Positions 3,550 to 45,999 of a stretch of DNA of 64,000 nucleotides are shown here, one piece after another. A program made the position numbers and the translations under genes. The notes beneath the pieces are model-generated. The model ran no database searches and had not been told where the DNA came from. It saw only the letters and a program-made list of their open reading frames with translations. This DNA comes from Sapria himalayana (taxonomy: Eukaryota; Streptophyta; Magnoliopsida; Malpighiales; Rafflesiaceae), in contig JAREIK010003121.1 of the NCBI GenBank assembly GCA_029783825.1, positions 29,672 through 93,671 of the forward strand, given 5' to 3'. Position 1 is the stretch's first letter. Every line of letters begins with the position of its first letter.

Positions 3550-3639
3550 TATGTGCTCTCAATTCTAGAGAGAGAAAGTGGCAAGTCTAGAGAGAAAAAT
3601 CTTTATTATTGAGGGTTTAAAGTTTGATTTGAAGCAAAA

Positions 3640-5160
3640 ATGAAGAATATGTTTTTAAAAAATCATTTGCTTTTATTTTTAAAGAGACCATGGCCTTATG
3701 TGGATAAAATGCTTGTAAGGATGGAACTCCCGTGGCTATCTTCACAAATGAGGCATTCTCGATTTTTGAAGAACCATTTAAACTCACTCTAATTTGGAAG
3801 TTTTTGCACGATAGGCCGATGTTTGAAAATATACAAGCATTTGTAGCATTGCTGAAGCTTAAGTAATGGTGAAGCTATTTTTCTTCGACGTGAAACATGT
3901 GTTCTTATAGTTTAAATAGGAATTGAATTTTTATAGATTATGGTTAAGGAGGCATGTCTTGTTGCAGGCCTTCCAATGCAAGTTTTCAAGTGCTTGCTGA
4001 AGTTTAATCCATTGAAGTAGCCTCCTCAAGCCCTGGTATGGTTCTGCTTACCGAGATTGCCTCTACACTTAATTAATAAATACTCTCTCTTCCTCTTTAC
4101 TCAATGTTTGGATATCTCATGGATGCTTGATGAAGCAATGGCCTGTATGGCCACCTCGAGTGTAGTAATGGGGTGTGTGGAGGTGAATATGCTTGTTCCT
4201 TTACCAAGAGAGTGTGGGTAGGCACAGATACTGAAAATGGGTTTTGGCAGCCCTTAATTACAGAGAATCTTTCCATCTACTGCTTGAAATGTTATAAAAT
4301 GGGTCATGGGGTAGAAGAATGCATTGAAGGGAGGGATAAAGTTAGTATGGAAGATAGAAAGGGTAGAGATAAAGAATGGTTAAAAAAAGGCCAGGAAAAT
4401 GGGAGGATAGTAAGCTAAAATGGGGGAGAAGGAGAGATAAACATGTAGAAGGAAAGGGAAGATGAGAGGGGGGCAAAAGAAGGGAGTAATCTAGAATGGG
4501 GAGAGATAGATGTAGAAAAGGGGAGAGGGAAGGTGAGAGAGGGAAGCTCAGTTAGATTATGGAAAAAAGAAGTAGAACTACAGCAGAAAAAGAGGGCAGA
4601 TTCTATTGAGGTAGGAATGGAAATAGTGGGATTGGGAATGGAGGCAAAGGAGATAGATGCAGTGGGAAAGGATGGAACAGAAAAAAGTAAGGAAAATAAT
4701 GGAGTTAGATGAGAAGGGGAGGGTAAGGAAGGGATAGGAAAAGATAGGAAGGAGAATGATTTAATTATTGAATTAGAAGGAGGGGAAAAAGGGGTTTCAT
4801 GAAAGCTAAGTTTAGATAAAGGGTAGGGAAAGATAGGAGAAGAGTGGGAAGAGATACATAGGAAAAGAGGAGGATTAGGGAGGGGGAGGGGAAGGAGAAG
4901 AGTGAGAAATCTTGAAAGGGAAATGGAAAAATATAATTGGGTAGAGCATGAACTTTTAATGGAGGAGGAATCAGAATCAAAAAGATGGTAAATCGTTAAT
5001 ATAAATAAAGAAAGAATTGAAGAATCACATGGATGATTATAATAGAACACAAGATGATGTTGGACTATATAAGAACATGCTGGCCATCGGAGAACTAGAG
5101 AACAAGGAAAAAGCAATGGAAGCCATCAAGATTATGGGATTGGGCTTGGTAAAGGTATAA
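3640..5160 (+). pseudogene. LINE-A ORF1 (gag-like) pseudogene
   Basis: ORF1 of plant LINEs encodes the RNA-binding protein that coats the transcript. A DUF4283-like stretch is readable at about 3717-4170 in shifted frames: it begins KDGTPVAIFTNEAFSIFEEP and continues to LINE-typical 'ALVWFCLPRLPLH'. A CCHC zinc knuckle follows in the open frame at 4173-4418, with Cys37, Cys40, His45 and Cys50 (4281-4322), spacing CX2CX4HX4C. Downstream is a charged Glu/Lys/Gly-rich tail with several stops, ending near 5160. The start at 3640 is only the first plausible ATG. Frameshifts in the DUF4283 part and stops in the tail make it a pseudogene. Confidence 0.85.
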
Positions 5161-5291
5161 CAGAATTTGACTTGGAAAGTTTATCATTCTAAGCTTAGTA
5201 TAATTAAATTAACAAAATACAAGAATAAATATCTAAACAAAAAATATGAGACAAAGTGTAACTTGAGATCACAAGCTAGCTACTTAAGAAA

Positions 5292-5494
5292 ATGAATAGT
5301 AGTTTATTTTGGAACATAAAAGGAGTAGTGCACACAACATCGATAAATTGGGTTAAAAAACTTATCAAATGGCATAGGATTAAAATTATTTTTCTAGCTG
5401 AACTGATGATAAACTATACTCAACTAAATACATTTAAAAGTAAGTTTGGCATGGATAAAGCTTATGATAATCATAATGGGATGCTATGGATTAT
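5292..5494 (+). pseudogene. LINE-A ORF2, endonuclease N-terminus, 5' of the CACTA-1 insertion
   Basis: This is the start of ORF2, the endonuclease/reverse transcriptase polyprotein. It opens MNSSLFWNIKGVV and aligns residue by residue with the LINE-B ORF2 start at 59269 (MDFMDRCLYWNIMGV). The 'WN' of the AP-endonuclease first motif is present, and the 'AEL' at 5397-5405 stands where LINE-B has 'AEP', the catalytic Glu region. The frame reads to NGMLWII and is cut at 5494 by the CACTA element. It resumes at 17428 as MWNNAIDIYIIKDS once the insert and one target-site copy are removed. An ATG 12 bp into the conserved block was chosen as start by alignment with LINE-B. Confidence 0.9.
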
Positions 5495-5999
5495 CACTAC
5501 AAGAAAAATCCCAAATAGCTAGGTAAAATTCCCTAGCTAAATGGGGTTTTCCTTCGCTAAAGTGGATATAACGATGGAATAACAATGAAATCTTTCCCAA
5601 TCAAAAGTGTCTGTCACAAAAATTAATGAGTAAATATATTCCCTAGAAAAATTTCTGAGAAAAATTCCATAGCAAAATTAGCGAGGGAAAAATACCTAGC
5701 TATTTTCATTCCAAAAATTTTTTCACATTTTTAATTTTTTACATAAAATTTAATTACATTTTTAAAAATTTTTATATTAAATTTAATAAAAACATAAACT
5801 ATAAAACATTATTTATAATTAACAAAAAATAAAATCAGTTATTAAAATATTCTGATACATTATGTTGCATAGTTAATACAGAAACATAACAAAACTTGAT
5901 TACATGTTTTTTATCAATGTTTCAAATGACAGTGCATAAAATATAATGTGTACATGAAATTGACGTTGCTTTCTCTCCCCCAACTCTTCAAGATATGCA
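5495..5999. repeat. CACTA-1 left terminal and subterminal region
   Basis: This holds the terminal repeat followed by short motifs ('ccctagctaaat', 'ttcgctaaa', 'attagcgaggga') in both orientations to about 5710. An AT-rich stretch conserved with CACTA-2 (28100-28590) and CACTA-3 (32421-33100) follows. In En/Spm elements such subterminal motifs bind the element's DNA-binding protein; that role here is inferred. Around 5960-5999 lies 'gacgttgctttctctccc', also present in both homologous copies in CACTA-3. Confidence 0.85.
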
Positions 6000-6125
6000 T
6001 ACTACTCTAGCACTCGAGCATGTCCCTCCATGGCCATCTGCATTGCTTCCTTTAGTTCTAGTCTACATTTCCTCTCCACTTCCACATCCTTCATCCTTTT
6101 ATCTGCCAATGCCCTTTTTTTAACA
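6000..6125 (-). pseudogene. Charged helical C-terminal tail, probably of a CACTA-encoded protein
   Basis: On the minus strand this reads as an uninterrupted Lys/Glu/Arg/Met-rich helix-like segment (KRMKDVEVERKCRLELKEA and on), then a stop and 'YAYLEELGERKQRQFH' towards the element end. The position just inside the left end, and the conserved flanks in CACTA-3, suggest the 3' exon of an element gene transcribed leftwards. No family is recognised with certainty. Confidence 0.4.
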
Positions 6126-6674
6126 AGCTACTCTTCCAACATCAATATTTTTATTTTGCGATCAGTTGCATGTATGTATACTTGTGCATGTATGTATGTT
6201 CCTATGTGTGTGTGTGAACATGGACACATGTACTTTCATGCAACTACACATACCATTAAAGACAATAGAAAAAAAACTAGGTCTTTAAAAACACACATAT
6301 AAGTCCCTCAGGCATGGTTAGGATCGTATAGTTTTTTGTCCTCTGGTATTCCACGTAGATAGAGAACATTGTTACACTAAACATGGAGCATAACATAGAA
6401 AACGACACATTACTACTGATAAATAGATAGACTAGCGCATGCAACACTAACTACCATTTGCTAGAAATTTCACCCAATGAGACAATCATGAGCTTATTTT
6501 TAAATTACCGAATCAAGATTTTTCCAAGATTTCCAGTGAACTGCCCATCAACAAATTCTTCTATATTTCCCAGTCTCACGCATCAATCCATGGTTAATTA
6601 TATGAAAGTTAGAAAGGTGTTTTGTATGGACATAATATATTTTAAATAAAAAATCCAAAATATGATGTTTGCTT
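6126..6674. other. CACTA-1 interior, no gene seen
   Basis: AT-rich DNA with a short TG/TATG-rich patch near 6170-6225. Open frames here (for example 6458-6649) show no recognisable domain or codon-like constraint. Confidence 0.5.
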
Positions 6675-8515
6675 GAAAAATATTACCAAACTAGTGCTTC
6701 TAGAAATAGGGTGGAAATGGCTATCATTGTGAACGATGGTCATTGCCATGATATTGAATTTTAAAAATCAAGACCTTCATCAATGTCTGCCTCACTTGAT
6801 GATGCCAAATTCGGGCTTGAAATTGGGTTTGACATGAGATCCAGTTTGGTTTCGTTTTTGCTTCAATATTGCATCTTGGCCATACAGATTTTCAAGTGAG
6901 AAGCTATGTTAAGTTGGTAGTTTGATCAAGAGATAATGTAGAAATGGAAGATGAAGAATATGAACTTAATTTGATGGTTTTCTCTGGATTGAAATGGAGA
7001 AAGTCACTTGTGGCAAGCATCTCTTGATTTGTTGAATTTTACAGGATCACTCTAAATCATGATTAAAGAAAAAAAAAACAAATCATTTAATAAAAAAAAT
7101 AGGCACCTTATCATCTCCCCTCTTTTTTTCTTTATACAGCTGGAGAAATGATAGTAAACTCGAGCAAGCATAACTTGCAAAAATGAACTCATGGTTTAGA
7201 ACTTGAGTTTCTTTGTCGAGGTTAATGGAGCAATTGGGGCTGCATGTTACACTTTTTGTAAGTAATATAGATTCAATCTTTTGCCAGCCAGAGCCACTCT
7301 CACATGTAGATGTGTTGCTCCTGCACCGATTTTTCTTCTTTTTTAAACTCAGTCAAATGTGTGATTAGTGAGATATGAAGTATTTATGCGCACATATTAC
7401 AATAGTTGACACAATGATACATATGAATAAGTGTGTGGGTGTGTGTTTGTGCGTGTCTTTGTGGGTGTGTATTTGAGTCATTGATGGGTAGCATAAGTGA
7501 TTGATATATCGCACTAGAAGAATCTGAGAGAAAAAAAGTAAAAAAAGAAAGAATTGTTTTACCCGTTGAGATTGAGGCTAAGATTCAGGCTTCCAATTGG
7601 AACAGTGACTAGCTAAAGTTCCTAAATAGTCTCTAGAGAGGGAAAGCCTTTTTTACACTTGATGTAAGTTTAGAATGTGGCAATTCCAATGAGCCATACT
7701 CTTCCTGCCTCACTGCCTATTCCACATTTCAGACTTTGCATCTCTATTTTAATGTACTCTATAATGTTGTTACATACTTGCCAACCATAATTTGGCCATA
7801 TATCAGAGACCCATTTAAGATCACCCACATATAAAACAACTCCTCTACTCAAATAACCATCTATGATGCACTTTAGCTCAATTAATTTATTGTCAACATC
7901 TACTTTTGAATGATTCCTTAAAAAGAACAGAGAGAATGTTACTAATCTAACCATTTCCATTTTCTCTCTCACTCCTTATGCTATACTCTTTATGCTTGCC
8001 ACACACTCTTTCGTAATCACAATGTTTCTTTTATTCCTCTCCATCACCTTCGTTCTTTGTTAGTTCTTTGTTAGTTCTTTGTCAGTTCTTTGTCAGTTCT
8101 TTTTCAGTGTTTCTAATGACGATCTTAGTGTCCTTCCCCAATGGTTCAAATTAATTGAAAGAAAGAAATGGAGGAGGAGAAGAGTTGGATGTGGTGAGAG
8201 ATTTTATGGCTTCTTTCAGGTAAGAATTCCTGAGAGCTGAAGTGATATTTGTAGTGGTAGCCATGGCAGATGATGTACTTCTGGAATAAATATCGATGGA
8301 TATGGCTTGTTCAACCTTGTTTTTAACTAGGTTGGATGTCAGACACTCTTTCATTATTCCAAATGCCTGCATTTTAGAATTTTTAAAATTTAATAGCCGA
8401 CATTCACAATGTCAGCCTTTGATTTTTAAAATTCAATAGCGTGGCAATGACCCTCATTCACAATGATGCAAATTACCATGCTATTTCCAGATGCAATAGT
8501 TTGGTAATATTTTTC
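6675..8515. mobile_element. Inverted-repeat-flanked 1.84-kb segment, possible Pack-MULE, nested in CACTA-1
   Basis: An approximately 98-bp sequence at 6675-6772, beginning GAAAAATATTACCAAACT and ending in TTGAATTTTAAAAATCAA, recurs inverted at 8419-8515 with scattered mismatches. The pair bounds exactly the SMXL-like gene fragment. Long terminal inverted repeats around a host gene piece are the pattern of Pack-MULEs. However, I could not find a convincing 9-bp target duplication, so the superfamily assignment is an inference. Confidence 0.6.
6780..8390 (-). pseudogene. Captured SMXL4/5-like (SMAX1-LIKE, Clp-N/AAA-type) gene fragment
   Basis: SMXL proteins are nuclear HSP101/ClpB-related repressors in karrikin/strigolactone-type or phloem developmental signalling. 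Reading leftwards, the fragment starts after an acceptor-like 'atgcag' at about 8373 with an ..IMKECLTSNLVKNKVEQAIS segment. It then gives a GVVLYVGDLKW segment and CGIGSEAGRVWLIGIATF (7670-7972 frame), continuing through two in-frame stops to TVPIGSLNLSLNLNG at about 7560, where a 'gtaaaa' donor-like site stands. Further pieces are VTCSPNCSINLDKE..SSLLSFLQLYK (about 7140-7310) and SSPNLASSSEADIDE (about 6790-6880), in the family's order. A 12-bp tandem repeat (agttctttgtta-like, 8059-8110) has expanded inside it. Introns appear retained, so capture was from genomic DNA. The remainder of the roughly 1,000-residue protein is missing. Confidence 0.85.
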
Positions 8516-9995
8516 AAACTGTATTAATATCATTCACGAAAGCAAAAAATCTATGAATATCTCGTGTACACAAAAAATTATATCAAACAAGAAAACTTGA
8601 TTACTACTCCATACAAATTTTCTTTTAACTTCTCATTATCATCATCAATGAAATATCATCTCAACACTATTATGAATAAATATTACTCTAACCAAAAGAA
8701 CATGAGATCAATCAACAAGAATACCAAATATACTTCATAAAGGATGCTTGTCAAATCATCTATCATTATGTTCGAGTAGATGTCTTACCTACACTCCATT
8801 GCCATTATAATAGTCCATCTAGCTTCTCAACACAACTTCAAAGTTTCAATGCATGCAGTTTGTCACTGGTGTAATCTGGTTCACCTTGATAAGAAGGGTC
8901 TATGCCCTATCCAAGCAACCAAATCAAATTAATAACAAAAAAATACAAAAACAAAAACTTTTAGAGCTCAATGATATGCCAAGCCTGTTATGAACTCACA
9001 AAGAAATCAACATTTTGCCTCTTGCTTGTATTTGAGGTCGTAGAGTATCTGATCCAGCTCATAAAACTTAGATTCAGCAACTTCCACCCTTATGGGTCAC
9101 ATATGGCATTAATGTAGTTGGAATTGAGGCTTAAGCCATGTGAGCACTGATTTCAATAATACAAAATGGAAGTGCGACGGTTTCGATAACATATAGTGAG
9201 CCTGCGAAGATTTGCATATTACACAATGCATGGGTAATCGTGGATGCTAGTGCATAGTTGATGCACTCCTTCTAGTGGTTTAAAGCTCTTTTTGACACAC
9301 CCCCCATAGAGTTTATATTTCCCTAGGATCGCTTTTGCTACCATGTAAAACATTAAATCACACAACATAATATAAATATAATACACTTGATTAATAACCT
9401 CATACAAACAATGCCCTTATATAAAATGTTATTTTTATTAGGGCAACTCATAGGATGAATAACCTCTAAATCACTTTCAAAGTGTACCTGTTTGTACCAG
9501 GCATGCCTCAATGTGTAAGACATGCTAATTCTTTCTCCAAAAAGCTATCAATAGAACAACGTATCAATTGATAAAGTAGAAAACATGGCAACCAGCATAA
9601 CATAAGCAATATCACAAATATTGTGCTCATCAATAAGATAGTTATATATAGTATATATGTACATATAATATTGTAGTGTATATGTACATATACTGAGTAT
9701 ATATGTACTTATATACTATAGTATATATGTACATATATACTATAGTATATATACATATACACTACAATATATATGGATCTCTTATCGATGTAGAACAGAA
9801 CGTAAAGTATTATCTCATGTATACATCACAAAGAAAGCACAAAACAACACTATCAATATTAATAAGAAATGTCAATATGATTTAAATTTTTGAAAATATA
9901 TCTAAAAACTCTTAGAGGAAAACCTGTAAGAAAAGCCATGAGCTTGGCTTGGCGCATCAAAGTTCGCACCTTGCCTCTATACAACCAAAATTTTC
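8516..9995. other. CACTA-1 interior with coding-like scraps and an AT palindrome cluster
   Basis: Two minus-strand stretches look coding-like but unidentified: about 9005-9105 (RVEVAESKFYELDQILYDL) and about 8797-8905 (IDPSYQGEPDYTSDKLHALK, with later stops). They could be neighbouring exons of another captured gene. At 9636-9775 there is a cluster of self-complementary tatatgtacatata units; similar clusters occur twice in CACTA-3 (near 33300-33490 and 34690-34890). The remainder is featureless AT-rich DNA. Confidence 0.45.
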
Positions 9996-10140
9996 TCATG
10001 GTCCAAGGCCTATAAGGGGGTTGATCTGCCCCGTCACCCCCCGCATCAACCCTGTAGCTTCTGCTGCCATATGGTTCCTCTCTTGGTTCGAAACAAGGAC
10101 CATCACTTCATTGTATGCTTCAATGTAACTACTGAATAAT

Positions 10141-10204
10141 TCAATATGCACTCCAAAAAATAATATGCACTCCATAAAAACAATATGCACTCCATAAAAA
10201 TAAT
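10141..10204. repeat. Three tandem copies of a ~21-bp unit
   Basis: The unit 'aatatgcactccataaaaac' occurs three times with small changes. It lies just downstream (minus-strand sense) of the BPC fragment and inside a spurious minus-strand open frame (9996-10289) that is otherwise unrecognised. Confidence 0.8.
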
Positions 10205-10309
10205 ACACATTCAAAGAAAAAAAGAGGAACAAAACTCTAAAAATTGGATGTTTTTTATTCCAAATATAAAAAAAAAGCAATTGCTGCAAAATTTACATTC
10301 TTCATATAG

Positions 10310-11038
10310 TAAGGTATCTTGACTCATCTTCCTCCCAACTATTCTCACTCTTCTTCTATTCATGCTCATTGGTAGAAGATACATCAAAGTGCTAGTTGTA
10401 CAGCATGTGGTTTGGCACCAACCACAACCCCATCGATAGCATTTCTAAAACTTGCATGTAGATGTGCATATTGGTATGGGAATCTCTAAGATATCCATTT
10501 CATTGATATCGATGATCACGTCCAAGCATTTCTTTGGAACTTTCAAATGTGGAACATAAATGGAGTTTGGGTCCTTTGGTTTCCTCAGTTTCTCTGGTTT
10601 TGATTTTCTTAGGGGATCCCCACTTTGCGTTCTCTTGGATTGGCTACCTTGTTCATCAAGGCTTGGTTGATCGATCTTACAAATCCTTTTATCTCGCAAA
10701 GAATCATGTGGGTGTAGAATCTGCAATGGTTAAGCTCCAGAAGTTTATGTGAGAATAAGATAAGAAGCTTTTGGAGGTAACATGTTCAAAAATTTATCTC
10801 TCTGGTTTATCCAGCCATCTCTCATGTATTGTAGAGCAAGAGAAGTGTTTGAGACAATGCATTCGTGGGGATGGAATGATTTGTTGGCATTAATGATAAA
10901 GTTGTTAAGATCACATCCTTGTAAGAAAGGCTTCATGTCGTGGTCTTCCATGCTAGGTATCAGTTGTAGACCAAGATGCCCCTTGAAAGATAGCTCGTAA
11001 TAGCCATAGTTCCTCATGTTCATCCCATCATCATCCAT
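10310..11038 (-). pseudogene. Captured BASIC PENTACYSTEINE (BBR/BPC class I) transcription factor pseudogene
   Basis: BBR/BPC proteins bind GA-repeats and recruit repressive or activating complexes in plant nuclei. The copy starts at the family's usual Met (MDDDGMNMRN, 11038). It runs through GYYELSFKGHLGLQL and YMRDGWINQRDKFLNMLP, then a basic linker (KSKPEKLRKPKDPN) and the conserved VPKKCLDVIIDINEMDILEI (10445-10726). After a 1-bp frameshift near 10443 the pentacysteine domain continues as CYRWGCGWCQTTCCTT, then PMSMNRRRVRIVGRKMSQ, where homology stops at about 10310. The RTHWARHGTN-type C-terminus is missing. Two in-frame stops lie at 10730-10750. The coding region is intronless, as is common in this family. 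About 70 bp upstream of the ATG may be its 5' leader. The copy is non-functional. Confidence 0.92.
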
Positions 11039-11214
11039 GAAACTATGAACATGCAGGAGAAGGAGAACAAGTAGAATGAACACATTTAATTGAATTTCAT
11101 TAGCAAGCATTATGAAATTAACAATTCAACAGTTTAATTCCACCAATGACCGATAAAAAGTAGTCGTAGATCTGAACAGTGACAAAATAGATCTGCACGA
11201 AATAAGAGTGTCAA

Positions 11215-11330
11215 GAAGAAACTTGCGTCTATATGGGACCAGATTTTTTTTGTTCATCTCACAACTTCAGAAGCTAATGTGCTATTCCCAATACCAGGAG
11301 GACCAACTAAGCCTTTTATATACCTATAAT
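11215..11330 (-). pseudogene. Short captured fragment with Walker-A P-loop (uridine kinase/phosphoribulokinase-like)
   Basis: The minus strand reads GLVGPPGIGNSTLASEVVR, a stop, then TKKIWSHIDASFF. It resembles the P-loop exon of the plant phosphoribulokinase/uridine-kinase-like family (GPPGxGKST...EVVRRVNKLW), with the catalytic Lys changed to Asn. A 'tag' acceptor-like site precedes it. In CACTA-3 the corresponding position is occupied by GC-rich triplet repeats instead. The match is short, so the family call is tentative. Confidence 0.5.
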
Positions 11331-11859
11331 AGGCTAAAAATCTACCCAAAATATTTGAGTACACATAAACATTTCACAGATATATAAAAATAGTAATTAT
11401 AGACATGAAAAAATATGAATGTGAGTTGATAGTCATACAACTTTAAACAGATATCTAAAAGATGGCCAGCAATGATGTTTAGAGAGAGTATGTGTGTGCG
11501 AAAATAAAATGTTTCAGAAATAATAAAGTTAATAGAAGCTCGGCCTCTTTTTGATCTAGCTGAAATTGATAAAGATGTGACCCATTCATAGGAAGGACTA
11601 TGATAATATATGAAGGCTTTGAATTAGAATTTTTTCGTGCATCTCATATGAGATATCCTACAAAGATTCATGATTAGGTTAATCAACAAAGCATAGAACA
11701 AAACCAGAATAAAGAATAATGATACATCCAAAAAAATCTCATCCTGTTTAGCTACACATAGATAAAAATCAAAAATAGTTCGGAAATTATTTTGATACAA
11801 AATCATCCTCATTATTAGTTGGTGCATTTGTGCTAGCCTCTCCTATGTGGTTTCATAGT
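11331..11859. other. CACTA-1 intron-like DNA shared with CACTA-3
   Basis: AT-rich sequence with no gene, but clearly homologous to CACTA-3 at 34130-34280 and to each 1,031-bp unit there (for example 35330-35830). Shared landmarks are 'tacctataataggctaaaa', 'cagatatataaaaat' and 'cccattcataggaaggac'. It probably represents intron or untranslated sequence of the element's own minus-strand gene. Confidence 0.6.
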
Positions 11860-12800
11860 TGGATCTTGAAATGCTATCTATCCCATCAATGCCACTAATT
11901 GTAACTCCATATAGGACATCTACTATTGTATTAAATTTTTAATTTCTTTCATCTCATCATTCATTTATTTCATGTCATCATTCATTTCTTTAATTTCTTG
12001 CATTTCTTCCTTGAAATGATTAATCTACTCATCCATCTCTTCTTTCATTTCCCGCATTTCTTCCCTCAAATAAGATATCTGCTCATCCTTCACTTTCATT
12101 TCGGTCTCCATAACTTCAAAATGTTTATTTGTTTCCATTACTTGTGTTCGACCGCCTTATCCACCATTACTGTGACAAATGAATTAGAAGCATGACTACT
12201 ACAACAAAATGCTACTCCATTTGAGCCGATGTTATATACTCACTGCTTCTTATAACCTTTTATCGTCTCCAAATAGATAGGATCAGAGTCAATTAGTTGA
12301 AGATCCATAGAACCCTCAACTTGTTGAGAAGCAACTGTAACACATTCCTCCATGAGTTCCTCTGATAAAATAAGAAAAAAAATTCTATTCTAGTTATACA
12401 TAAAATAAATTTAATATTTTGCATTCCAAACAACTTTGAAAATTTACTGTAGTATTATAAAATTTTATTAATATAACAGATTCTTACACCATTCATCTTA
12501 GACTTGTCAAAAAACTATCCATCCACTCTCTTCACATGCAACTTCCTAAAAAGCTCATAAAAATTGGGATCTCGGTCAAATTCTCCAGCCTAAAGTCTGT
12601 ATTTATTAAGTCAAAAAATAACAAATGTTAAAAATTTTTAACAAAATTAATAAAATCATGCACAGATTTGATTTATTTGAACTATTAGAACAACTACTAA
12701 ATATATAAATGTTTTAAATTTTAAAATTGTACCAAATATATAGTGTGCTCAATGCTCAACTTCGACCCTCCTGTGTGGTGAGACATTTCTGTACCTAGTC
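11860..12800 (-). pseudogene. CACTA-1 Transposase_24-like (Ptta/En/Spm) gene remnant
   Basis: Transposase_24 proteins are plant CACTA accessory/DNA-binding proteins with a conserved core and a C-terminal coiled coil. On the minus strand I read HTGGSKLSIEHT (about 12730-12800) and DRDPNFYELFRKLHVKRVDG (about 12490-12600, followed by a gtaag donor-like site). Next come EELMEECVTVASQQVEGSMD and DSDPIYLETIKGYKKQ (about 12230-12370), then a long Glu/Met/Lys coiled coil (about 11940-12110). Several stops interrupt it. The coiled-coil end is repeated in CACTA-3 (35830-38250) and partly in CACTA-2 (28590-28740), which supports its being native to the element rather than cargo. Family assignment is by motif pattern only. 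Confidence 0.7.
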
Positions 12801-13329
12801 CAGCTGATATTTAGAGATAAAGACATGTTTTTGGCTCTAAAGATTAGATCGGGTTAGGGGTACTTTTTTTTCCAAAAAGTTGAAACCGTGAAACCCATCC
12901 CCTTTTCCCCTAGATGGATCAACCCGCAACACACACCTCCCCCCCCCCCCCCCCCCACATACATTTTTTCAAAAAATTTGGTTCTGGCTATGAAATAGGT
13001 GCCTATCTTTCTCTTATATGAGTGTTAATGTAGAGTACACAACTCATCCCTCATAAAAAGGGTGATTTTTTATTGAGATCCTGGTAAAGGCTAAAGGAGT
13101 GTCAAGTGTCTTTTATTTTTAATAGCTTGCCTCATATTTGGTTTCGAGAAGAAGAAGTTTCTGCATAAAAGGTGCTTCGCAGACCATGTTCAAGGCTAGA
13201 GGTTGTTAATGCTTGATTTTTTTTGTTTTATAATTCTTATATCCCAATATAAAAATCTTCAGGTCTGACAGAGTATGCATGTACGTAGATGTGCATTTAA
13301 TTTGGTAATCTATAGTAGATTTCATGATT
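12801..13329. other. Unassigned CACTA-1 interior with an 18-bp C homopolymer
   Basis: No coding signal recognised. A run of 18 C lies at 12939-12956, striking in DNA this AT-rich. The stretch separates the Transposase_24 remnant from the RNA polymerase pseudogene and shares no obvious homology with CACTA-2 or CACTA-3. Confidence 0.6.
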
Positions 13330-15850
13330 TAATGAAGAATATCTAGGATTAGGTATATTATGATATTGAGAAGGATCTTGAAAGATGTCAAAGTACTCGT
13401 TCGAATGTAATGAGTTATCAGGATGAAGTAGTGGATATATTGAGAAAGAATTCTAGGACTCATTTCACAGAGAGTGAATTATTCAGTTTGCAAAAGTTAA
13501 TTGAGAGATATACTTCAATGTATGACGAGGAGAAACCTAATTTGTATGGTCATACAAATGAAATATTTAAGATGAAGATCTCTCAAGAGAAGACAACTAC
13601 TAAGAATTATCTCAAGATTTACCATGATCACTATGTCTTAGTATCAACTATTCAATATTTGGAGATTGTTATTGTTTATGTACTTGGTTCTCTCTTCAAC
13701 TATATTAATGATTACCCCATAGTTCACATATCAACTCTAATTAAGCATTTGGAAATGTGTGTAAGATTCCAAGCTAAAGTCTTGAAAGATGCAAAATGCT
13801 AGATAAGAAAATAGTGTCAGACAAGGCTTCTAGCTGTAATGAGTAGACACAACAGGTTAAGTTGTCTGACGACAACCCTAAAAATAAAAATGTAAGAAAT
13901 ATGTGATAGTTATGTGTTTAGTTGAATTCTTATTGGATAGACATATGATTGAGGTTACAAGTCAATTCAACTTTAGTGAATATTATGTAAAGGGTTCACA
14001 TATCAACTCTAATTAAGCATTGGAAATGTGTGTAAGATTCCAAGCTAAAGTCTTGAAAGATGCAAAAATGCTAGATAAGAAAATAGTGTCAGACAAGGCT
14101 TCTAGCTGTAATGAGAAGACACAACAGGTTAAGTTGTCTAACGACAACCCTAAAAATAAAAAATGTAAGAAATATGTGATAGGTATGTGTTTAGTTGAAT
14201 TCTTATTGGATAGACATATGATTGAGGTTACAAGTCAATTCAACTTTAGTGAATATTATGTAAAGGATAAGGATAGTAAAAAAAATCTCAATCCCAAGCA
14301 AATTATATGCAATTGCAATTTTGAGATTGACATGATTCTGATCAAACTCAATCTACCAATGGTATGTAAGCCTAAGGCTTGGAGACCCATAAGTGAGTAT
14401 TTAATCCCACCTTTATATCAAAATTTGCATGGTGAGTACTTATTTGACCCAATAGGTGATATTTATTAGAGCTTTCACATAATTACATCTCATAACTTGA
14501 CCCATTTAAAATTCATCTAAATACTAGATTTATAGATTTGTGCTTAGCCCTGAATACATTACAAGAACATGCTTTTGATATTAATAAGGATGTATTGAGC
14601 TTCATGGAAAAGAATCATCAACTCTTTGTTAACATGGTTTACTTATGCATAAAAGTCTTTCAAAAGTGAATGTTAGCAGGGCCATAGAAATAGTAAGGTA
14701 TACTTACATACAGTTTAAGAAAAAGTAACCCATTTCTAAGTAATTACCATGATTTGGTTAAGATTCTCATGGAGCGTATCCAATGTGCTTGATATGAAAC
14801 TGTCACAATCAAACTAGTATCTGCCTACAAGGCTTATAAATTATATCTGCCAACCTTCGTTGACTTCGTAATAGAATTTACCATGTTAGGGTATTCCATT
14901 TTCATGAGTGTGATTTAGCTAGAATTTTAATTCTTTTCTCTAGTAAGAATGCAGTAGATGGTAAATTGACCGCTGAAGTAAATGTATATAGAACAATAAG
15001 CAGTGCTGCTACTTTTTATTGTAAGAAGGTATTATAACTTATGAGAATGCTTTCTTATGGTATAAAAATATTATGGATGATAATTTATCGGATGAGGATC
15101 TCTTCCAAATTTTAAAAGATAATGATGCAGTTGATCTCTATCAGTTCATAAGCAAGTATCTATCTCTTAATAATAGTACTAATCTAATGCAAATTTCTAT
15201 CATACAAGATGCCTCAGCAAGTGCTTATCAGATTATGAGTTATTTTATTTTAGATACTAAATTAGCCTCATTTACTAATCTTATACCTTTGATTGAAGAT
15301 AATACTCTATAGTAGTATTCTAGATGAACTTCTGAGATACTAGAACAAGAAATTGTCTAAAAATGTACTTAACATAGTAATTCCAAGTCTCACTTGTAAA
15401 TTAATCAAAGTACTCTTCATGGCTATGATATATGGTAAAACTTTATTAAGTATATCAAATGATATTTATCAAAATTATAAACCATTTTAAGACAACAAGA
15501 ATGCAGCGAATTAGCTAAAGATATACAATCCTTCTTTAAAGAATGCTATCTAGTTATACTTTATCTATTGGAATTGATCTGCAATGTGGGTTGGTTAGCA
15601 TTAGCCATGAATAAATCCATTTTATATAGTGTTGGTCCTTACAAAACTAAGTAAGACTATATGAAGTTTAAAACTGAACAAATATATGTATTTGATCATA
15701 ACCTAAAAAGGAGGCAAGTTACTTTATGAATTTCCACGAATGATAGGGATCAAAGGAAGAGTCATACCTGTACCTTTGCTAACTTCATTCATCAAAAAGA
15801 TTTGTACATGGCCATGCACATGATAAAGGAAATACATTATTTAAAGGCTT
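13330..15850 (+). pseudogene. Phage-type RNA polymerase pseudogene, linear mitochondrial plasmid type
   Basis: This single-subunit (T7-family) DNA-directed RNA polymerase resembles those encoded by linear invertron plasmids of plant and fungal mitochondria. Readable blocks in order are a thumb/palm-proximal N-terminal part (13410-13802), LPMVCKPKAW (14353-14382), FKIHLNTRFIDLCLALNTLQ (about 14510-14560), and YLPTFVDF then FHFHECDLARILILF (about 14850-14940). Motif A follows as QDASASAYQIMSYF (15205-15246) with its catalytic-type Asp. Motif B is KVLFMAMIYGKT (15407-15442) with the Lys and Tyr-Gly. KRRQVTL and NFIHQKDLYMAMHM (about 15787-15830) come last. The motif C HDS block is absent: homology stops at 15850, just before DNA common to CACTA right ends. 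Frameshifts, stops and a 272-bp duplication kill it. The N-terminal third is not seen. Confidence 0.86.
13722..14265 (+). repeat. 272-bp tandem duplication inside the RNA polymerase pseudogene
   Basis: Copy 1 (13722-13993) and copy 2 (13994-14265) both start 'gttcacatatcaactct' and end 'tattatgtaaagg'. They differ at only about seven positions. The second copy restores a longer open frame (14020-14469), while the first carries a TAG and small deletions. The junction 'gtaaagg|gttcac' lies at 13993/13994. Confidence 0.95.
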
Positions 15851-15859
15851 AATAAATTA

Positions 15860-17427
15860 TTTTCAACAAGTTAATGTGCGTGTAGCAATACACACATGAA
15901 AAACAAATACCTTTCAATTTTTAATTATCAAATTAATTAAACAATAAATATATACACAATTTCGAAAAATTAGATGCTTGGCTTTCCAAATAGAAAAACA
16001 AATCAAATGGCTACAAAATTTGTAAACTTAATATAGCAAGGCACACATGAAAAAAATTATTGGTCTTCAAGCCACTTTCTTAAAAATTTATAAATACCCT
16101 TTATGTTAAAAAATATATAAATATATATATTTTAAGTTCATAAATTTTTAAGAATTCATATTAATTTTATGAATATAATAAGAAATAATTTTAATGGCAT
16201 AAAATTTCATATTATTTGATATAATTTATAATTTATAAAATTCTAAAAATTACTTAAAGTGAGATGATTATTAAGAAAATTTATCTTTATTAAATTTAAT
16301 AAAGACATAATATTAAAAGATAATAGTATAAATTTAACTCAATTATTTAGTTCTTATAAATTTCAATAGGGACAAATATCTATGTATTTATCTTTAATAT
16401 CAATTTATTTCATTTAAATATTATCAAAAATTAGAAATTTTTTTATAATTCAAAAATTTCAAATTTTTTAGTAATTATTTTTTAAAAAATTTCATTTAGG
16501 TATAAAACTATTTTTTATACTTAAAATAATATTATATTTACTAGTTTTTTTGTTAATTATGATGTTTTTGTAAATATCTTATATTTTATCATATAATGAA
16601 TTATTTTATCTTTTTATTAGTAGAAATTTTAATGTATGTTCATTATCTTTTTATATATCTTTAAAATTTTTAATAATTATAGAATTAATTATTTAATGTT
16701 ATTCTAGTCTATATTAATAGGTATTATAGTCTATATTAATAGTTATTGTAGTTTTTATTAATATTCAAATTTTTTGTATTTATATATTTTAAAATTATTT
16801 ATTTATAATAACCTATTTTTCTAATTATACGAGGAGAATGTGTCTTTCAAGGATCGCTCATCTATAGACCATGGCATATGTACCTTTAATATACAAAATT
16901 AAATAAAATATTAAAACTAATAATATATAAAAAAAATTAAATCATTAAAGATTAGCGATGAAAATTATCTCTAGCCCAAATAAATAGGTAAAAATCCCTA
17001 GATAAATGAATATATTTGTGAAAAATAAAATTTAAGGAAAATCACTTGCAATAAAATATAAAATAGTGAACAAAATTTTCATATAATTATTTATTGATGG
17101 ATTTTGTCTTGATCTAATAAGCTACAGATATTCCGTCGCTATATCCATCCATCACTATATCCGTCGTTATATCCTTCGCTATATCCATCACTATATCGAT
17201 CACTAAATTCCCTACTTTTCATTATGTGGAAATCTACAAAAATATTAGCAATGAAATATTTTCAATCAAACATTTCCATCGCTAATCATTTACTAATCCT
17301 TCGCAAAAGTTTAATTTAATGTAAAATCAAAAATTTTTTTTTATTCCCTAGCTAATCCCTCGCTAATTAGCTAGGGATTTTATCCCTAGATAAATTTCCC
17401 TATCTAAATCGACATTTTCTGTTAGTG
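15860..17427. repeat. CACTA-1 right-end region with subterminal repeats
   Basis: From 'attttcaacaa' onward the sequence parallels CACTA-3 from about 46000, sharing 'aatgtgcgtgtagcaa' and 'cacacatgaaaaacaaa'. From about 16130 it also parallels CACTA-2 from about 52490. The last 450 bp are dense in 'cgtcgctatatcc' and 'ccctagctaat' motifs and end TTTTCTGTTAGTG. No gene is present. A conserved block with 'tatagaccat' at 16860 occurs in all three elements. Confidence 0.88.
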
Positions 17428-20400
17428 AATGTGGAATAATGCCATAGATATATATATAATTAAAGACTCTTGTCAAATGGTTAGCTTTAAAATAGGAAGA
17501 GACTCTAAAGCAATATTTTCAACTATTTATACAAGTAATGCCAAGGAAACAAGGAAATCACTCTGGAAGGAAATGCAAGAGATAGCGCAGAACAACTTTC
17601 CCTAGATCATAAGAGGAGCCTTTAACATGATAAGGCATTCTCTTGAGAAGAAAAAAGGTTGACACTCGGATCATGTAGTAATAGCCCAATTCAATGAGAC
17701 ATTAGATCACAAAAATCTGATTGAGGCATACTTCCTGGGAATAAGGTACACATGGTGTAACAACTAAAAGAAAAGAGGAGCAATCTAGTTCAGATTTGAC
17801 CAAGTTCTATATAACTCCAAATGGATAGATAAGTTCGGAAATATAATGGTAAATTATTTAAATTGAACTTGCTCAGATCATATCCCATTATTAATATCTT
17901 GGCAGAAAAGATAAAGAAAGCAGAACGAATTTAAGTTTCAGAATGCATGGGGACTGCACAAAGACTTCGACAGGGTAGTAAGAGATGCATGGGAAGACCA
18001 ATTTCTGGAAACCCTGTGTAGATTCTAGCAACTAAACCTATAATAAAAACACTTTGGAAATATTAATAAAAAGATTCAGGATGTAGAAGATAGGGTTGCA
18101 AGGTTGGAAATCATCTATGAGGAAGTATAAGATGAGTGCTCAAAGGTAGAATTAAGCAAAGCGAAAGCAGAACTAAGACTCAGATTGCATATGGAAGAAG
18201 TCTTTTGGAAGCAAAGAGAAAAAACTAAATGGTTGAAAGATGGGGATAAGAATACAGAGTTTTATATGCCATGGCAAAAATTAGGATTCAAAAGTATAAA
18301 ATAAAAGGCTTAAGAACTAATTTTGGGCAATGGGTAGAAAGGGAAGAGAATATAAAAGGAGAGATAGAAGAGTTATCTAAAATTCACCCATACAAAAAAA
18401 CACCTCAAAAGAGTGTCTCGCTGATGCAATCTATAGAAAAACAAATAACATAGGAGGAGAACAAATGGCTTGAAGAATTCCCATCAGAAGAGGAGGTTAA
18501 AGAGGTAGTCTTACTCTAACAAAGAAAGCATAGTAGGTTACGATGGATAGAATAGTGGCTTTTTCCAATGTAGCTGCAGCATTATAAAAAAGGACCTTGT
18601 GGCAGCCATCACATGGATATTTGTGGGAGCACATATTACTAAGAAATGGGAATGCTTCTTTATTGTATTGATTCCAAAAAAGGAGAACCCTCAGAAATAT
18701 GAGGATTATAGGCTAATTAGCTTATGTAACACCATATACAAGATACTAAATAAACTACTTTAGAGTAGGTTTAATAGGATTTTTCCTTCTATTATATCAA
18801 CTTAGCAAGTGGGCTTCATCAAAAATAGGTCAATAATGAAAAATATCAATTTAGCCGTAGAAATGATGAGAGAAATAGGAACTAAAAGAAGTGGGCACAA
18901 TGTAATATTTAAATAAGATTTATCTAGAGCTTTTGACAGAGTAGAATGGGAAATTCTATTCACATAATGAGAAAAATGGAATTTTCAGAAATTTGCATAG
19001 ATCTAATATATAGATGTGTTTCGAGTGCGTGGGTGAAGATCCTGGTAAACGGACAGGCTAGAGAGGAATTTAAACCAATTAGAGGATTAAAACAATGAGA
19101 TCTATTCTCGCCCTCACTATTTAACATATACCTTGAACTATTAATAGTAAATCTAAAAATTGAAATGAGGAAGGGTAAAATCTTAGCCTATAAACACCGA
19201 GGTATACCCCAAAATGTGTGCTGCCTAGCATACACGTATGCTATTATTATCTTCTCAAATGTTAGCAGAACATCCTTAGAAAATATGATAAGCCTACTAT
19301 AGGTATTAGGCGAGGAAACTGGACAAATATGAAATAAGAATAAATGACAATTTATTATAAAAAGGAAATCACCTACAAATATAGCTCAAAAATTAAAGAA
19401 GGTGATAGGCTTTTCACAAAATATAGGAGTGCTAATGTATTTGGGATGCATGATCTTTGAAAGTAGACTGAAAGAAGAATATTTAGCCTTCCTAGTAGAA
19501 AAATTAAGAAAGAAAATTATGGGTTGGAAGGAAGACCTGCTAAGCATGGCAGGTAGAGCTACTTTAATCTCACATGTGCTTCAAAGCTCACTAGCATATA
19601 TTCTAATGGAGGTACAGCCACCAAAAAAGTTGATAAATAAATTAGAAAAAGATATGTCTAACTTTTTATGGGGTAAGAAAGAAGAGAAACCCAAGCCACA
19701 TTGGAAAAAATGGAAAGACCTATGCTTCCCAAAAGAGGAGGTGGGTTTAGGTTTTATTGGCCTAAATGATATAACCAAAGCCTGGGCCTACAAAATTTAG
19801 TGGTGTTTGAAGAATAATACCAGCTTATGGGTAGAATATATGAGAGCTAAATATAAATGATAGGATAACTCACTTAGGGAATCAATACAGTTGTCTAAAT
19901 GTTGGAAACTAATGCAGAATCAGCAAAGCATAGTGGACAAGCACTCAATCATGGTAAATAGTGGATGGAAATGGACCTTGAACGATCAAGGAAAATTCTT
20001 TTTAAAATGTGCAAAAAAGCTAATAAGAAAGAAAAGGGAACCTCAATATATTTTCAAATGGGCATGAGAGGAAGAAATGCTGCAAAAAAACGATGTTTTC
20101 ATGTGGAGGGTTCTATCAAATGCCATTCCACTAGATGCGAATATTCAAAAGAGAGGCATAAAATTAGCATCCAAGTGTGAATGGTGCTTAGAGGCAACAG
20201 AAAGTATAGATCACTTATTTTCTACAGGAAGGATAGCATTAGAAGTTTGGAACAAATTAGAAGCATATGTGGGTATGGAAAAATGAGAGTTAGCGTTAAA
20301 GGCTAGAATTGAATATTAGAGGAAAGCTCACATAAAGGGAAAGCTATTAGAATGGATTAGAAAAAGCATACCACACATAGTAGTCTAGTGTATTTGGAAA

Positions 20401-21050
20401 GCCAGAAACAAATGTAGATTTTAGAATGTTCAAATGAGTGCCAAAGCATACTAGAAGATATAAGAAGAGAAAGCTCTTCATTTACAGTTGGCAATTTGAT
20501 AAGAGTTAGCAACAAGGATAAAGAGGTAGAAATTAAAAAGCTATGGAGGCTAGAAACCATTAGAAAAAAGTGACCAGGATTTAAAAAATTCACTCAGAAC
20601 AAACCATCGAATAGTACACTAGCCTTAATACGGATTGAAGCTATAAAAGAAATATGGGGGTGAGAGGAAGAGGAGGGGTTATAAGAGATGAGCAAGAAAA
20701 GGGCATTAAAACATTCTCTTTGAGGGGAATAGCCATATCAGCCTTGCATATGAAAATTAGGGCCTTTCATAAGGGCTTGGAAATATGCAGCAAATATAAA
20801 TTCCCAAAAATACAAGTACATGTGGATTCATGCCTACTAGTGAATTTAGCTACAGAAAAGATAGAATTATGGGGATTCGAAGAAGAAATATGAAGTATCA
20901 GATAGGCCCTAATAGAGTTGAATGGTGAAGTAGCACATATATACAGAGAAGCAAACACACTCATAGACAGGCTAGTAGAAGAGTGAAAGAAGAAAAGTTT
21001 CAAGAATTTGGTGGAGAGGACATTCCAGACAGATACAAAGGTATAATTAA
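17428..21050 (+). pseudogene. LINE-A ORF2 continuation: endonuclease C-terminus, RT, zf-RVT, RNase H
   Basis: ORF2 resumes after CACTA-1. The endonuclease ends with a 'TCSDHIPLL' block (about 17868-17895) containing the SDH motif. The RT region (about 18480-19400) includes VGFIKNRSIM and DLSRAFDRVEWE. The catalytic box is destroyed: LINE-B has A-Y-V-D-D, while here it reads A-Y-T-Y-A at 19228-19242. The RT thumb reads open at 19402-19800. zf-RVT (about 20077-20286) has FMWRVLSNAIPLDANIQKRG and CEWCLEATESIDHLF. RNase H (about 20654-21000) has HVDS, but the usual Glu in AExxA is Lys (HMKIRAF). Many stops and frameshifts make it inactive. Confidence 0.92.
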
Positions 21051-22910
21051 TTTAGATAGAATAGGCGTTCCTTACGTCAAAGTCACAAAAATTAAGAAAT
21101 AATAAATAGGAAGAGTTCATGTTGGTGGGCATAAGCTAGTAGCACATGGGTCACCCTGGTACTAGGGGGGGGGGGGGGTTGTAACTTCAAGAAAACAGAA
21201 ACATAACTATTGGTAATAAACAATTAAATCTGAAACATAGAACATAATTAGAAGTAGGGTAGAAAGATTAAAATAGATAAAGATTTAACATAAAAGATAA
21301 ATACTCACTTAAAGATTAAATAAGTTGTGTTATGTCTATGTTGGTTGCTTTGGTTGGCCTAGCTTCCTAGAACAACAAATAAACCATCACACTATTGGCA
21401 CAAAAAGTAGATTTCAGGAAAGATAAAAAAAATCATGAAACAGATTTTATGCAGGATGTAATTGATTTATTTTTTGTTTTTACTATTTGTATCACTGGTT
21501 TGTTTGGTCCTATGAAAGGGTAGAAGATAACTAGAAGCAAAGAAGAAAGGAAATGCTAGAAGCAGCAAATTCAAATCACTAGTAATGTAGGTTGTTGCTA
21601 GGATGTGATGGATGTATTGCTTGGTATTTGCTTGCTTGTTTGATTTTGTAAGGGCATGAGAATCATTAGAGGATGTGATGGAGATGAAGCAGAAAAAGAT
21701 TATAGCATATGGTACACTACCTATCTATGCTTTGTAAGGACATGAGACAAATCTGAGGCATAAGAAGAAATGCAGGGCTAGAAGCAGCCGATTCAAAATA
21801 ATAGAAGTGTAGGTTGTTGCTAGGATGTGATGGTATGGCTTATTTGTTATTGCCTACTTGTATGATTTTGTAAGGGTAGGATCAAAGGATGTGATGGAGA
21901 CGAAGCAGAGGCAGATCAAAGATATGTTGTACTGAAGCAGGATACTGCCTGATCAGAGGTAGTAGAAGAACTAGAGGCATAAGAAGCACAAAACATAAAA
22001 ATAGAAGCATGAGCTGGAGCAGGCTATTGCTATGTGGCAGTAGGATAATCTAAGTAGGTAGAGTTGTTTTTAAAACGCAAGCATGCAGATTGTTTAGACA
22101 ACAAGAACCCTCACTATATTGGCACAAAAAGGAGAGGGCAGAAACTATAAAGACAATATGTTTAATTATTTGCATGTTACTACTATTATTGTTTGTTTGG
22201 TTTTTTTGAAAGGGCAAAATATAACTAGAGGCAAAAGGAGAAAGGCAGGAAAGAGGCAGCAAGTTCAAAATAATAGCAGTTAGCAGTTGCTATTTTTTGT
22301 TTAGTAGGAATGCTTGTTAAAAGAAGGAAAATTCAGGGGAGAAGAAGGATGGAAAGAGGATGTGGACTCTATGCAGGATGTGATGGATGTATTGCTTTTT
22401 ATGAATTATTTTTTATTACTTGATTGTTTGATTTTGTAAGGGTAGGAGCCAAAATAAAGGATGTGATGGAGACAAATTAGAAAGGCAGAAGGTGAACTAA
22501 AGGCAAAAGCAGCACAAAAGAAGAATTCTAACCCAAAGCTAAAGGGAGCAAACATTAGGATAGAGGAATGCTATAACTAATGAATATAGTAGCAAAATGA
22601 GGGGAAAAGGTGATAGTAAGATAATCCAAAAAGGTAGTGCGGTCTAAAAGACAAGCAAGTAGATTGTGCAGTCGACAAGGAAGAATCATATGATCCAAAA
22701 TAGAAGTTTAAAAATGAAAACTTTAAAGGAATAAAGCAACACACATTTCAAATACGATGAGAAATTAACTAAAAATGGCTAAAATGCTAAATGATTTCTT
22801 TTATTTTAGTGCACAGAATGGTGTAAAAGGGTAAAGGGTAGTAACTTAGAATGTACTAAAGGTATTCTTCTACCAAAAGAGAAGGTATTAATAATAAAAC
22901 AAATCTTTTA
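21051..22910 (+). other. LINE-A 3' region with degenerate internal repeats
   Basis: No ORF is supported. A 14-bp G run lies at 21165-21178. The phrases 'ggatgtgatggatgtattgc' and 'gattttgtaaggg' recur near 21601-21660, 21831-21880 and 22377-22445. 'ctattggcacaaaaag' recurs at about 21393 and 22117, indicating a diverged direct repeat of about 0.7 kb plus a partial copy. The region ends in 'cttttaaaaaaagaataag' leading into array 2. Confidence 0.75.
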
Positions 22911-24440
22911 AAAAAAGAATAAGAAGAATAAGAAAAATAAGAAGAATAATTAGAATAAGAAGAATAAGAAGAATAAGAAGAATAAGAAGAATAAGAAGAA
23001 AAAGAAGAAAAAGAAGAAAAAGAAGAAAAAGAAGAAAAAGAAGAAAAAGAAGTAAAAGAAGAAAAAGAAGAAAAAGAAGAAAAAGAAGAATATGAAAAGT
23101 TAGAAAAATAAGAAATATAAGATTAATTAGAAGAATATGAAGAATAAGAAAAATTAAAAAAAAAGAATAATAAGTGGAATAAAAAGAATAAAAAAATTAA
23201 AATGAATAAGAATATTAAGACAAATAAAAAGAATATGACTAATAAGTAGAATAAGTAAAATAAGAAGAATAAGAAGAATAAAAAGAATAGGAAGATAGGA
23301 AGAATAAGAAGAATAAGAAGAATTTGAAGTATAAGAAGAATTTGAAGAATAAGAAGAATAAGAAGAATAAGAAGAATATTAAAAAAATAAAAAGTTAGAA
23401 GAATAAAAAAATTAGAAAAATTAGAGCAATAAAAAGAATGAGTGGAATAAGAAAAAGAAAAAAAAGATTAAGACGAATAAGAAGATTGAAAAGAATAAAA
23501 AGAATATGAATAATAAGTAGAATAAGAAGAATAAGTAAAATAAGAAGAATAAGAATAATAAAAAGAATAGGAAAAAAATGAAGAATAAAAATTATAAAAA
23601 GAATAAAATAATAAGAAGAATAGGAAAAATAAAAAGAAACAAAAGAATAAAAAGAATAAGAAGAATAAGAATAATAATAATAATAACTAGAATAAGAAAA
23701 ATGAGAAGAATAAGAAGAATAAAAAGAATTAGTAGAATTAGAAGAATTAGAATAATAAAAGAAAGAAGAGAAATTGGAAGACAAAAAGGAATAAAGAAAA
23801 AAAAATAAGAAAAATTAGAAGAATAAGAAGAATAAAAAGAATATGAAGAAAAAAGAAGAATAAAAGAATAATAAGACAAATAAAAAAAGAATATGATTTT
23901 TAAATAGAATAAGAAGAATAAAAGAATAATAAGAATAATAAGAAAAAAAGTATATGATTTATAAATAAAATAAGAAAAATAAGAAGAATAAGAAGAATAA
24001 ATAATAAAAAGAATAAGAAGAATAAGAAGAATAAGAAGGATAAGAAGAATAAAAAAATAAGATGAATAAGAATAATAAGAAGAGAAAGGAAGAATTAATA
24101 GAATATGAAGAATAGAAAAAATAAAAAGAAAAATCAAAACAAGAAGAATAACAAGAATAAGTAGAATAAGAAGAAAAAAAGAATAAGAAGAATAAAAGAG
24201 TAAGAAGAATAAGAATAAAAAGAAGAATAAGAACAAAAAGAAGAATAAGAAGAATAAAAATGAATAAGAAGAAGAAGTAGAATAAAAAGATTAAGAAGCA
24301 TATGAAGAATTTGAAGAATTTGAAGAATAAGAAGAATAACATGAGTAACAAAAATTAAAAAAAATTTGAATAAGAAGTATAATATTAAGAATAAGTAAAA
24401 TAAGAAGAAGAAGATTAAGAAAAAAAAGAAGAAGAAGAAG

Positions 24441-24471
<31 letters not shown>

Positions 24472-32870: not shown

Positions 32871-32879
32871 ATTTAATTT

Positions 32880-34098: not shown

Positions 34099-34130
<32 letters not shown>

Positions 34131-38077: not shown

Positions 38078-38260
38078 GCTCAACCTTCTGTTCTTTAATT
38101 TCATTTATTTCTTCCTTCAAATGAGATATCTGCTCATCATTATTTTTTCATTTTGGTCTCTATAACTATAATATGTTGATTTGTTTCCATTGCTTGTTAT
38201 TCTACTGCCTCATCCACCATTGCTAAGACAGATGAATTAAAAGCACGACCTTTATTTGTA
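38000..38260 (-). pseudogene. CACTA-3 coiled-coil end of the Transposase_24-like gene
   Basis: Reading leftwards, the segment is homologous to 11940-12190 of CACTA-1. 'ccaccattgctaagacagatgaattaaaagc' parallels 'ccaccattactgtgacaaatgaattagaagc', followed by the Glu/Met/Lys-rich helix. The rightmost part is complete only in the third 1,031-bp unit. The core found in CACTA-1 is missing here. Confidence 0.65.
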
Positions 38261-41565: not shown

Positions 41566-41569
41566 TGAT

Positions 41570-44467: not shown

Positions 44468-44508
<41 letters not shown>

Positions 44509-45995: not shown

Positions 45996-45999
45996 TTTT

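Follow-up and report, generated by a model that had tools for sequence, protein, structure and literature searches.

The window, as we call the whole 64,000-base stretch of Sapria himalayana DNA analysed here, carries at about 12950-15848 what is, by its sequence, the decayed remains of part of an RNA polymerase gene of the mitochondrial linear-plasmid type, and this fragment lies inside a nuclear transposon, CACTA-1. An earlier sequence-only reading of the same DNA had placed such a polymerase within one CACTA element, and that placement stands: the ends of the element match each other and a host LINE reads through the empty site.

Results

The plasmid-derived segment occupies 12950..15848 (+) and comprises an upstream part and an RNA polymerase gene whose 3' end is lost. 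The decayed T7-family RNA polymerase of mitochondrial linear-plasmid type was annotated at 13353..15850 (+), with motif A, QDASASAYQIMSYF, at 15205..15246 (+) and motif B, CKLIKVLFMAMIYGK, at 15395..15439 (+). The T7-family motifs that the sequence-only reading had reported are thus where it put them, in order on one strand, though stops and frameshifts split them among three frames. Its limits for the polymerase, 13330-15850, agree with our right end at 15848, but the segment starts farther left, at about 12950. A tandem duplication of about 272 bases within the fragment (13722..14266, +; copies 13722-13993 and 13994-14266) is also present in L014 and L015.

A read-through translation, with frames picked by eye and X placed at stops, matches PF00940 (RNA_pol) at 3.6e-5, with 23.2 bits against a curated cut-off of 22; no individual frame of the window scores against this profile, and the separate pieces are without significance. 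In two-sequence blastp comparisons the read-through aligns with the RNA polymerase of phage Aristophanes across motifs A and B (7e-9) and gives short matches only with T7 polymerase. A tblastn search of 50,697 phage records with a 277-residue part returned three records from two phages, all annotated as RNA polymerase, at weak expect values of 0.2-2. In frameshift-tolerant alignment the segment outscored all 100 shuffled versions with each of two phage polymerases and 98 of them with T7, but the test is weak: the controls were 44 segments from the window, and LINE controls rivalled the polymerase for two of the three enzymes (observed versus top LINE control: Aristophanes 219 versus 220, T7 160 versus 200, Petty 244 versus 222). 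Solved structures searched with the read-through yielded no polymerase, and no match was obtained from bacterial plasmids (277-residue part), from NCBIfam, or from Rfam (whole window). Scans of viral contigs for the polymerase gave no match save one unrelated locus, apart from a scan with the NFIHQ pattern. That scan returned nine loci, and since three of the nine were read by eye as T7-type polymerases, NFIHQ is not plasmid-specific. The sequence-only reading had assigned the enzyme to plasmids by the wording of its motifs; the wording argument is weakened for NFIHQ, and the assignment itself holds through the relative described below.

The evidence for plasmid identity that we regard as decisive is a relative on contig C9301 of the same assembly (2.06 Gb, 18,497 contigs). 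This locus, L052, contains at C9301:92433-98277 a polymerase frame of 783 residues (PF00940, 1.9e-9), its continuation after a frameshift (PF00940, 0.0024, below the cut-off) and, following the RNA polymerase, a 962-residue frame for a type-B organellar DNA polymerase (DNA_pol_B_2, PF03175, 6e-99). The plasmid-type assignment is therefore supported from within the plant's own mitochondrial DNA, and both marks of a plasmid polymerase are present, a T7-family domain with motifs A and B and a relative linked to a type-B DNA polymerase. In DNA the window is 81-86% identical to L052 across the polymerase, and a piece of 134 bp farther upstream is 75% identical. The homologous region starts at L052 position 2598 (window about 12950) and reaches window position 15848, or about L052 position 5545 in longer sister copies, which extend through a HDNFITTALYAFQ stretch taken as polymerase motif C. 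A frameshift also splits the C9301 polymerase, and the distance between it and the captured gene is therefore not purely that of a working gene. Upstream of this polymerase lies a 345-residue open frame (L052:1321-2355) that matches nothing in Pfam at 0.01. Plasmid-type polymerase copies that are nearly open were also seen on two other contigs, at G000:C8405:90607-92781 and C7992:10370-12544.

We conclude from its contents that C9301 is mitochondrial, because it carries a nad4-like exon and group II introns; its GC content is 0.43-0.46 in four stretches and 0.48 in L073, against an average of 0.30 across the 30 loci L022-L051. One open reading frame matches Proton_antipo_M at 9.4e-46 and is read as a nad4 exon, a second frame so read has no Pfam match, and there are two group II introns. 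No tRNA was found in the C9301 stretches scanned, parts of the contig being N, and Rfam gave no match on the pieces initially scanned. The terminal inverted repeats that mark a whole plasmid were not found in the 15 kb around the polymerase, and we therefore take the C9301 copy to be a plasmid sequence that has integrated into mitochondrial DNA; what lies in the nucleus is a fragment and not a plasmid.

Nuclear RpoT genes belong to the same polymerase superfamily as the segment, but that the segment descends by decay from an RpoT gene of this plant is extremely improbable on the comparisons made. Searched against solved structures, the 783-residue relative found mitochondrial/RpoT-type proteins in 10 of its 14 matches, at only 0.005-0.007, whereas an RpoT-like bait of 100 residues scored 3.5e-26 in the same kind of search; moreover, the relative adjoins a type-B DNA polymerase in mitochondrial DNA. 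RpoT origin was rejected on the comparison of 0.005 with 3.5e-26 for the RpoT-like bait. The sequence-only reading had likewise set the enzyme apart from RpoT, and the intact relative is indeed far from the mitochondrial/RpoT-type enzymes, lacking strong RpoT-type similarity as judged against that bait.

CACTA-1 spans 5495..17427 (11.9 kb), as delimited by its terminal inverted repeats and by the rejoining of its flanks. The repeats lie at 5495-5507 (+) and 17415-17427 (-), the termini being CACTACAAGAAAA on the left and CACTAACAGAAAA on the right, opposite strand. The 3-bp target duplication reads TAT on the left (5492..5494) and AAT, with one change, on the right (17428..17430). Three sister copies at the same site that retain the exact end have TAT on the right, and AAT in the window is therefore probably a later change. 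The host LINE is divided into a left part at 3546..5494 (+; protein alignment 5292-5494) and a right part at 17428..22914 (+; alignment with LINE-2 to about 19490), the far limit of each being placed at the edge of a repeat array. When the flanks are rejoined minus one copy of the target duplication, they form one LINE frame that aligns gap-free over the junction with LINE-2, which is also in the window (tblastn 4e-82, 44% identity over 357 residues). Because the empty site reads gap-free as LINE, both ends derive from one insertion, and the possibility that the ends at 5495 and 17427 belong to different elements, raised in the sequence-only reading, is ruled out; the ends and target duplication that it had called identifiable were recovered together with the empty site.

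The left arm of CACTA-1 (5495..5979, +) is common to a second element in the window, CACTA-2 (there at 32421-33115), and partly to a third, CACTA-3; the right arm (15854..17427) is homologous to CACTA-2 at 45991-48227. These two relatives had gone unmentioned in the sequence-only reading. CACTA-2 (32421-48227), which has both arms in common with CACTA-1, is nested in CACTA-3 (28100 to about 53970), and the outer limits of both are approximate. In the rest of the window downstream, CACTA-2 and CACTA-3 included, no polymerase similarity was found beyond short, chance-like matches (E of 0.008 or worse), and Pfam scans of parts of CACTA-3 and of one CACTA-2 stretch returned nothing of note. Right-arm homology to CACTA-2 begins at 15854, six bases past the last plasmid-matching base at 15848, and the cargo boundary in the window is therefore sharp. 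The polymerase segment thus lies directly against the right arm, an arrangement that a later insertion with subsequent deletion would equally produce.

CACTA-1 also contains pieces of host genes. A captured fragment of a SMAX1-like gene, covering its nucleotide-binding domain, lies at 7568..7948 (-; PF23569, 7.2e-14, in an X-at-stops frame), and a captured BASIC PENTACYSTEINE / GAGA-binding (BPC) fragment lies at 10316..11038 (-; PF06217, 1.6e-35, in one X-at-stops frame), spanning positions 1-246 of the 284 in the profile. Both are additions to the sequence-only reading. The interval 11310..12945 (-; right limit approximate) is probably the remnant of an En/Spm-type element ORF, of which 11310-12196 is common to CACTA-2. 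A Pfam scan of 5950-13330 in six frames, with X at stops and E up to 1, found no transposase domain. Hence the "transposase remnant" of the sequence-only reading has no Pfam match in the window itself and is made plausible by a sister copy, L029, in which Transposase_24 matches at 3e-6 (27.9 bits against a cut-off of 28.7) over a stretch corresponding to about 12477-12584; another sister, L025, has no Transposase_24 match. CACTA-1 is thus without a working transposase domain in the window, as the definition of Pack-CACTAs demands, and it has CACTA-type terminal inverted repeats, a 3-bp target duplication and host coding fragments. On these features we classify CACTA-1 as a Pack-CACTA element.

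Sister copies carrying the polymerase fragment are numerous in the genome. With a motif-A DNA query, 40 of 273 candidates were scored and 40 matches obtained; with the read-through, 60 of 1,087 were scored and 75 matches obtained. The figures 273 and 1,087 count first-look candidates and are not total copy numbers. The best matches comprise 38 polymerase loci at 36 places (two were returned twice), the window's own included. The search for further CACTA copies with the fragment, proposed alongside the sequence-only reading, was therefore productive: all 38 of these best-match loci, which are no random sample, have the ORF-remnant module, the right arm or both next to the polymerase. A sister element on C2527 contains both the SMAX1 fragment (8.2e-5 and 5.7e-4) and the GAGA-binding fragment (2.6e-16), in the same order as in CACTA-1. 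At 21 of the 38 loci, L022-like sequence of about 1.1-1.3 kb continues beyond the point at which the polymerase stops in the window; it consists of some 173 more polymerase bases and then DNA that, in L022, holds a prolamin-like fragment. This extension has been lost in the window's subgroup, and L042 and L046 show earlier ends or other deletions among the copies. The prolamin-like gene fragment, between polymerase and right arm (L022:3932-5060; PF05617, 1.9e-6), is another captured piece.

The right ends of the copies fall at two kinds of site. Of 15 examined, six lie in a LINE (the window and L065-L069), all at one point, with about 570 bases intervening in L067 and a damaged end in L065, and nine (L058-L064, L042 and L046) lie beside a GATA-rich flank. 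The right flanks of L042 and L058-L064 are a GATA-rich repeat over hundreds of bases or more. Alignments between the GATA-rich flanks extend from several hundred bases to 1 kb, with roughly 70-96% in at least the pairs listed, the flank of L046 being compared over 25 bases only. Since this flank is a simple repeat, it is weaker evidence of a single event, and the LINE copies can be assigned to one and the same point with more certainty. In the 9 kb retrieved for a second element no left end was found, the target duplication being read at the LINE site. When the site-A copies were compared beyond the LINE, the comparison met another LINE piece.

Two kinds of insertion site imply at least two insertions, and hence past movement of the element. 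That the nuclear copies multiplied mainly by CACTA transposition is nevertheless improbable in our judgement. Exact CACTA termini occur at both of at least two insertion sites, the copies are on many contigs, and similar GATA-rich repeats could have taken separate insertions. Against this, six of the 15 right ends are at one LINE position and nine are beside the same kind of GATA-rich flank, and a polymerase copy 99.6% identical to that of the window (L015, G000:C3121:14604-14904) lies 30,087 bases upstream on the same contig, which suggests a recent tandem block duplication there. With right ends at just two kinds of flank among the 15, spread mainly by transposition was rejected for the sampled copies, which appear instead to have spread mainly with host repeats, multiplying with their surroundings via block duplication or via the LINE.

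The history of decay was read from an alignment in which the window and 33 retrieved loci, 34 nuclear copies in all, were set against L052; L014 (which is the window), L018 and L020 (the places of L040 and L038), L015 and L016 were left outside it. All 34 copies share gaps relative to L052 of 27, 6, 75 (96 in two copies), 6 and 12 bases, every one a multiple of three. A single-base deletion is present in 21 of the 21 copies that reach its site, and a single-base insertion, near L052's own frame break, in 30 of 32. Fixed differences are distributed over codon positions 1, 2 and 3 as 49, 40 and 74 (p 0.003), while the sites that vary among the copies are even (248, 224 and 217; p 0.30), indicating that the copies evolve without coding constraint. 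We read this pattern as that of a gene that evolved as a gene in the plasmid lineage and then followed separate, unconstrained lines of decay.

A tree with L052 as outgroup divides the copies into the window's subgroup (seven in the alignment) and the rest (27). A stop at codon 57, near the start of the frame, occurs in both subgroups (5 of 6 and 27 of 27) and is the sole stop in nearly all copies of both, among those tabulated. Stops at codons 263, 340, 372 and 383 are found in 27, 25, 26 and 21 of the 27 other copies and in none of the seven in the window's subgroup. With one stop common to both subgroups, the gene was probably captured nearly intact and decayed afterwards.

Retention of the polymerase as a working gene of the transposon is hard to reconcile with these data and highly improbable. 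The polymerase is present in every sister copy examined, though the sisters were found by searching for it, and open polymerase frames exist at C9301 (mitochondrial), C8405 and C7992. Yet all 30 of the 30 best read-through matches have internal stops, the variation among the 34 copies is even over codon positions and the 3' end is lost in the window's subgroup. For the copies seen, the stops and the even variation led us to reject a working transposon gene.

Discussion

The identity of the segment, the ends of the element, the sister copies and the decay without coding constraint are direct results, and we consider it probable that one account joins them. A 2.9-kb piece of a mitochondrial linear plasmid, comprising an upstream region and most of the RNA polymerase gene, would have become cargo of a non-autonomous nuclear CACTA element that also took up fragments of the SMAX1-like and GAGA-binding protein genes. 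The uptake would have been single, with the gene still nearly intact; the loaded element would then have come to lie in at least two places, the LINE and the GATA-rich repeat, and most sampled copies would have arisen by multiplication of those surroundings. The cargo would be passive and yield no protein, its DNA having depended for movement on transposase from another source and having been copied afterwards along with host repeats.

How the plasmid DNA entered the element is less certain. The segment sits at one edge, flanked by the ORF remnant and the right arm; in CACTA-2 and CACTA-3, which have the arms, nothing similar to it was found; and plasmid DNA is known from plant nuclear genomes (PMC10583447). 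It is accordingly possible, if rather unlikely, that plasmid DNA integrated into a pre-existing CACTA and was not taken by a capture process. However, two other captured gene fragments lie in the element and a third, prolamin-like, in longer sisters, and no plasmid termini were recognised at the edges of the segment. Several captured fragments make uptake as cargo likelier than chance insertion, and we favour it. We suggest only tentatively that such uptake was direct, the element taking plasmid DNA that had escaped from mitochondria and had not first inserted into a chromosome; such DNA could, for instance, have filled a break under repair where an element had excised. If true, direct capture makes organelle plasmids a direct source of transposon cargo.

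Tgm-Express of soybean is reportedly listed with the Pack-CACTA or Pack-TYPE transposons. Nuclear insertions of mitochondrial DNA (NUMTs) represent organelle-to-nucleus transfer, as does the present case. Unlike NUMTs, the segment is in a mobile unit at two kinds of site, and no other mitochondrial sequence was recognised in an unsystematic look.

Both components of the case are known: plasmid sequences in plant nuclear genomes are established (PMC10583447), as is gene capture by Pack-CACTAs (PMC8903248 and PMC13317346). Like the Pack-CACTA and Pack-TYPE elements of PMC8903248, CACTA-1 has CACTA terminal inverted repeats, a 3-bp target duplication, several host gene fragments and a sister family, and has no usable transposase of its own. 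It differs from Pack-CACTAs in that one piece of cargo comes from a mitochondrial linear plasmid and in that the sampled copies have largely spread with host repeats. The main text of PMC8903248 has no words for mitochondria, organelle or plastid, and that of the review PMC13317346 none for mitochondria, organelle or plasmid. The mitochondrial linear plasmids (invertrons) treated in PMC10583447 resemble our case in linking a T7-type RNA polymerase to a type-B DNA polymerase and in having relatives in the mitochondrial and nuclear DNA of one plant. The nuclear segment differs from them in containing the polymerase part only, in lacking terminal repeats and in being enclosed by a CACTA; that paper reports transposon-related domains within plasmid elements, the opposite direction. 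In the literature searched (titles and the starts of abstracts, subscription journals lying mostly outside it) we found no description of a plasmid polymerase as CACTA cargo. This agrees with the view of the sequence-only reading that such carriage is not a described class, and the combination of the two components is without a report found there.

The case brings together two known processes, the transfer of plasmid DNA from mitochondria to the nucleus and the capture of gene fragments by transposons. It is strengthened by the donor relative in the same plant and the many sister copies (dozens were seen); that the gene has decayed and has spread passively makes it more modest. If capture was direct, some reported plant nuclear plasmid sequences could be transposon-borne copies. 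Surveys of nuclear plasmid insertions could count copies carried by repeats as separate transfers. A plasmid gene with many nuclear copies could also be a source of small RNAs that match a mitochondrial replicon.

Other features of the window

Repeated partial ORF-remnant modules, three of them about 1,031 bases apart, occur at 34137-38249 within CACTA-2. Kilobase arrays of a 9-base purine-rich repeat (AATAAGAAG) lie at 12-3545, 22915-28097 and 53979-57656, and CACTA-3 appears to lie inside one purine-rich array, which itself separates the two LINEs.
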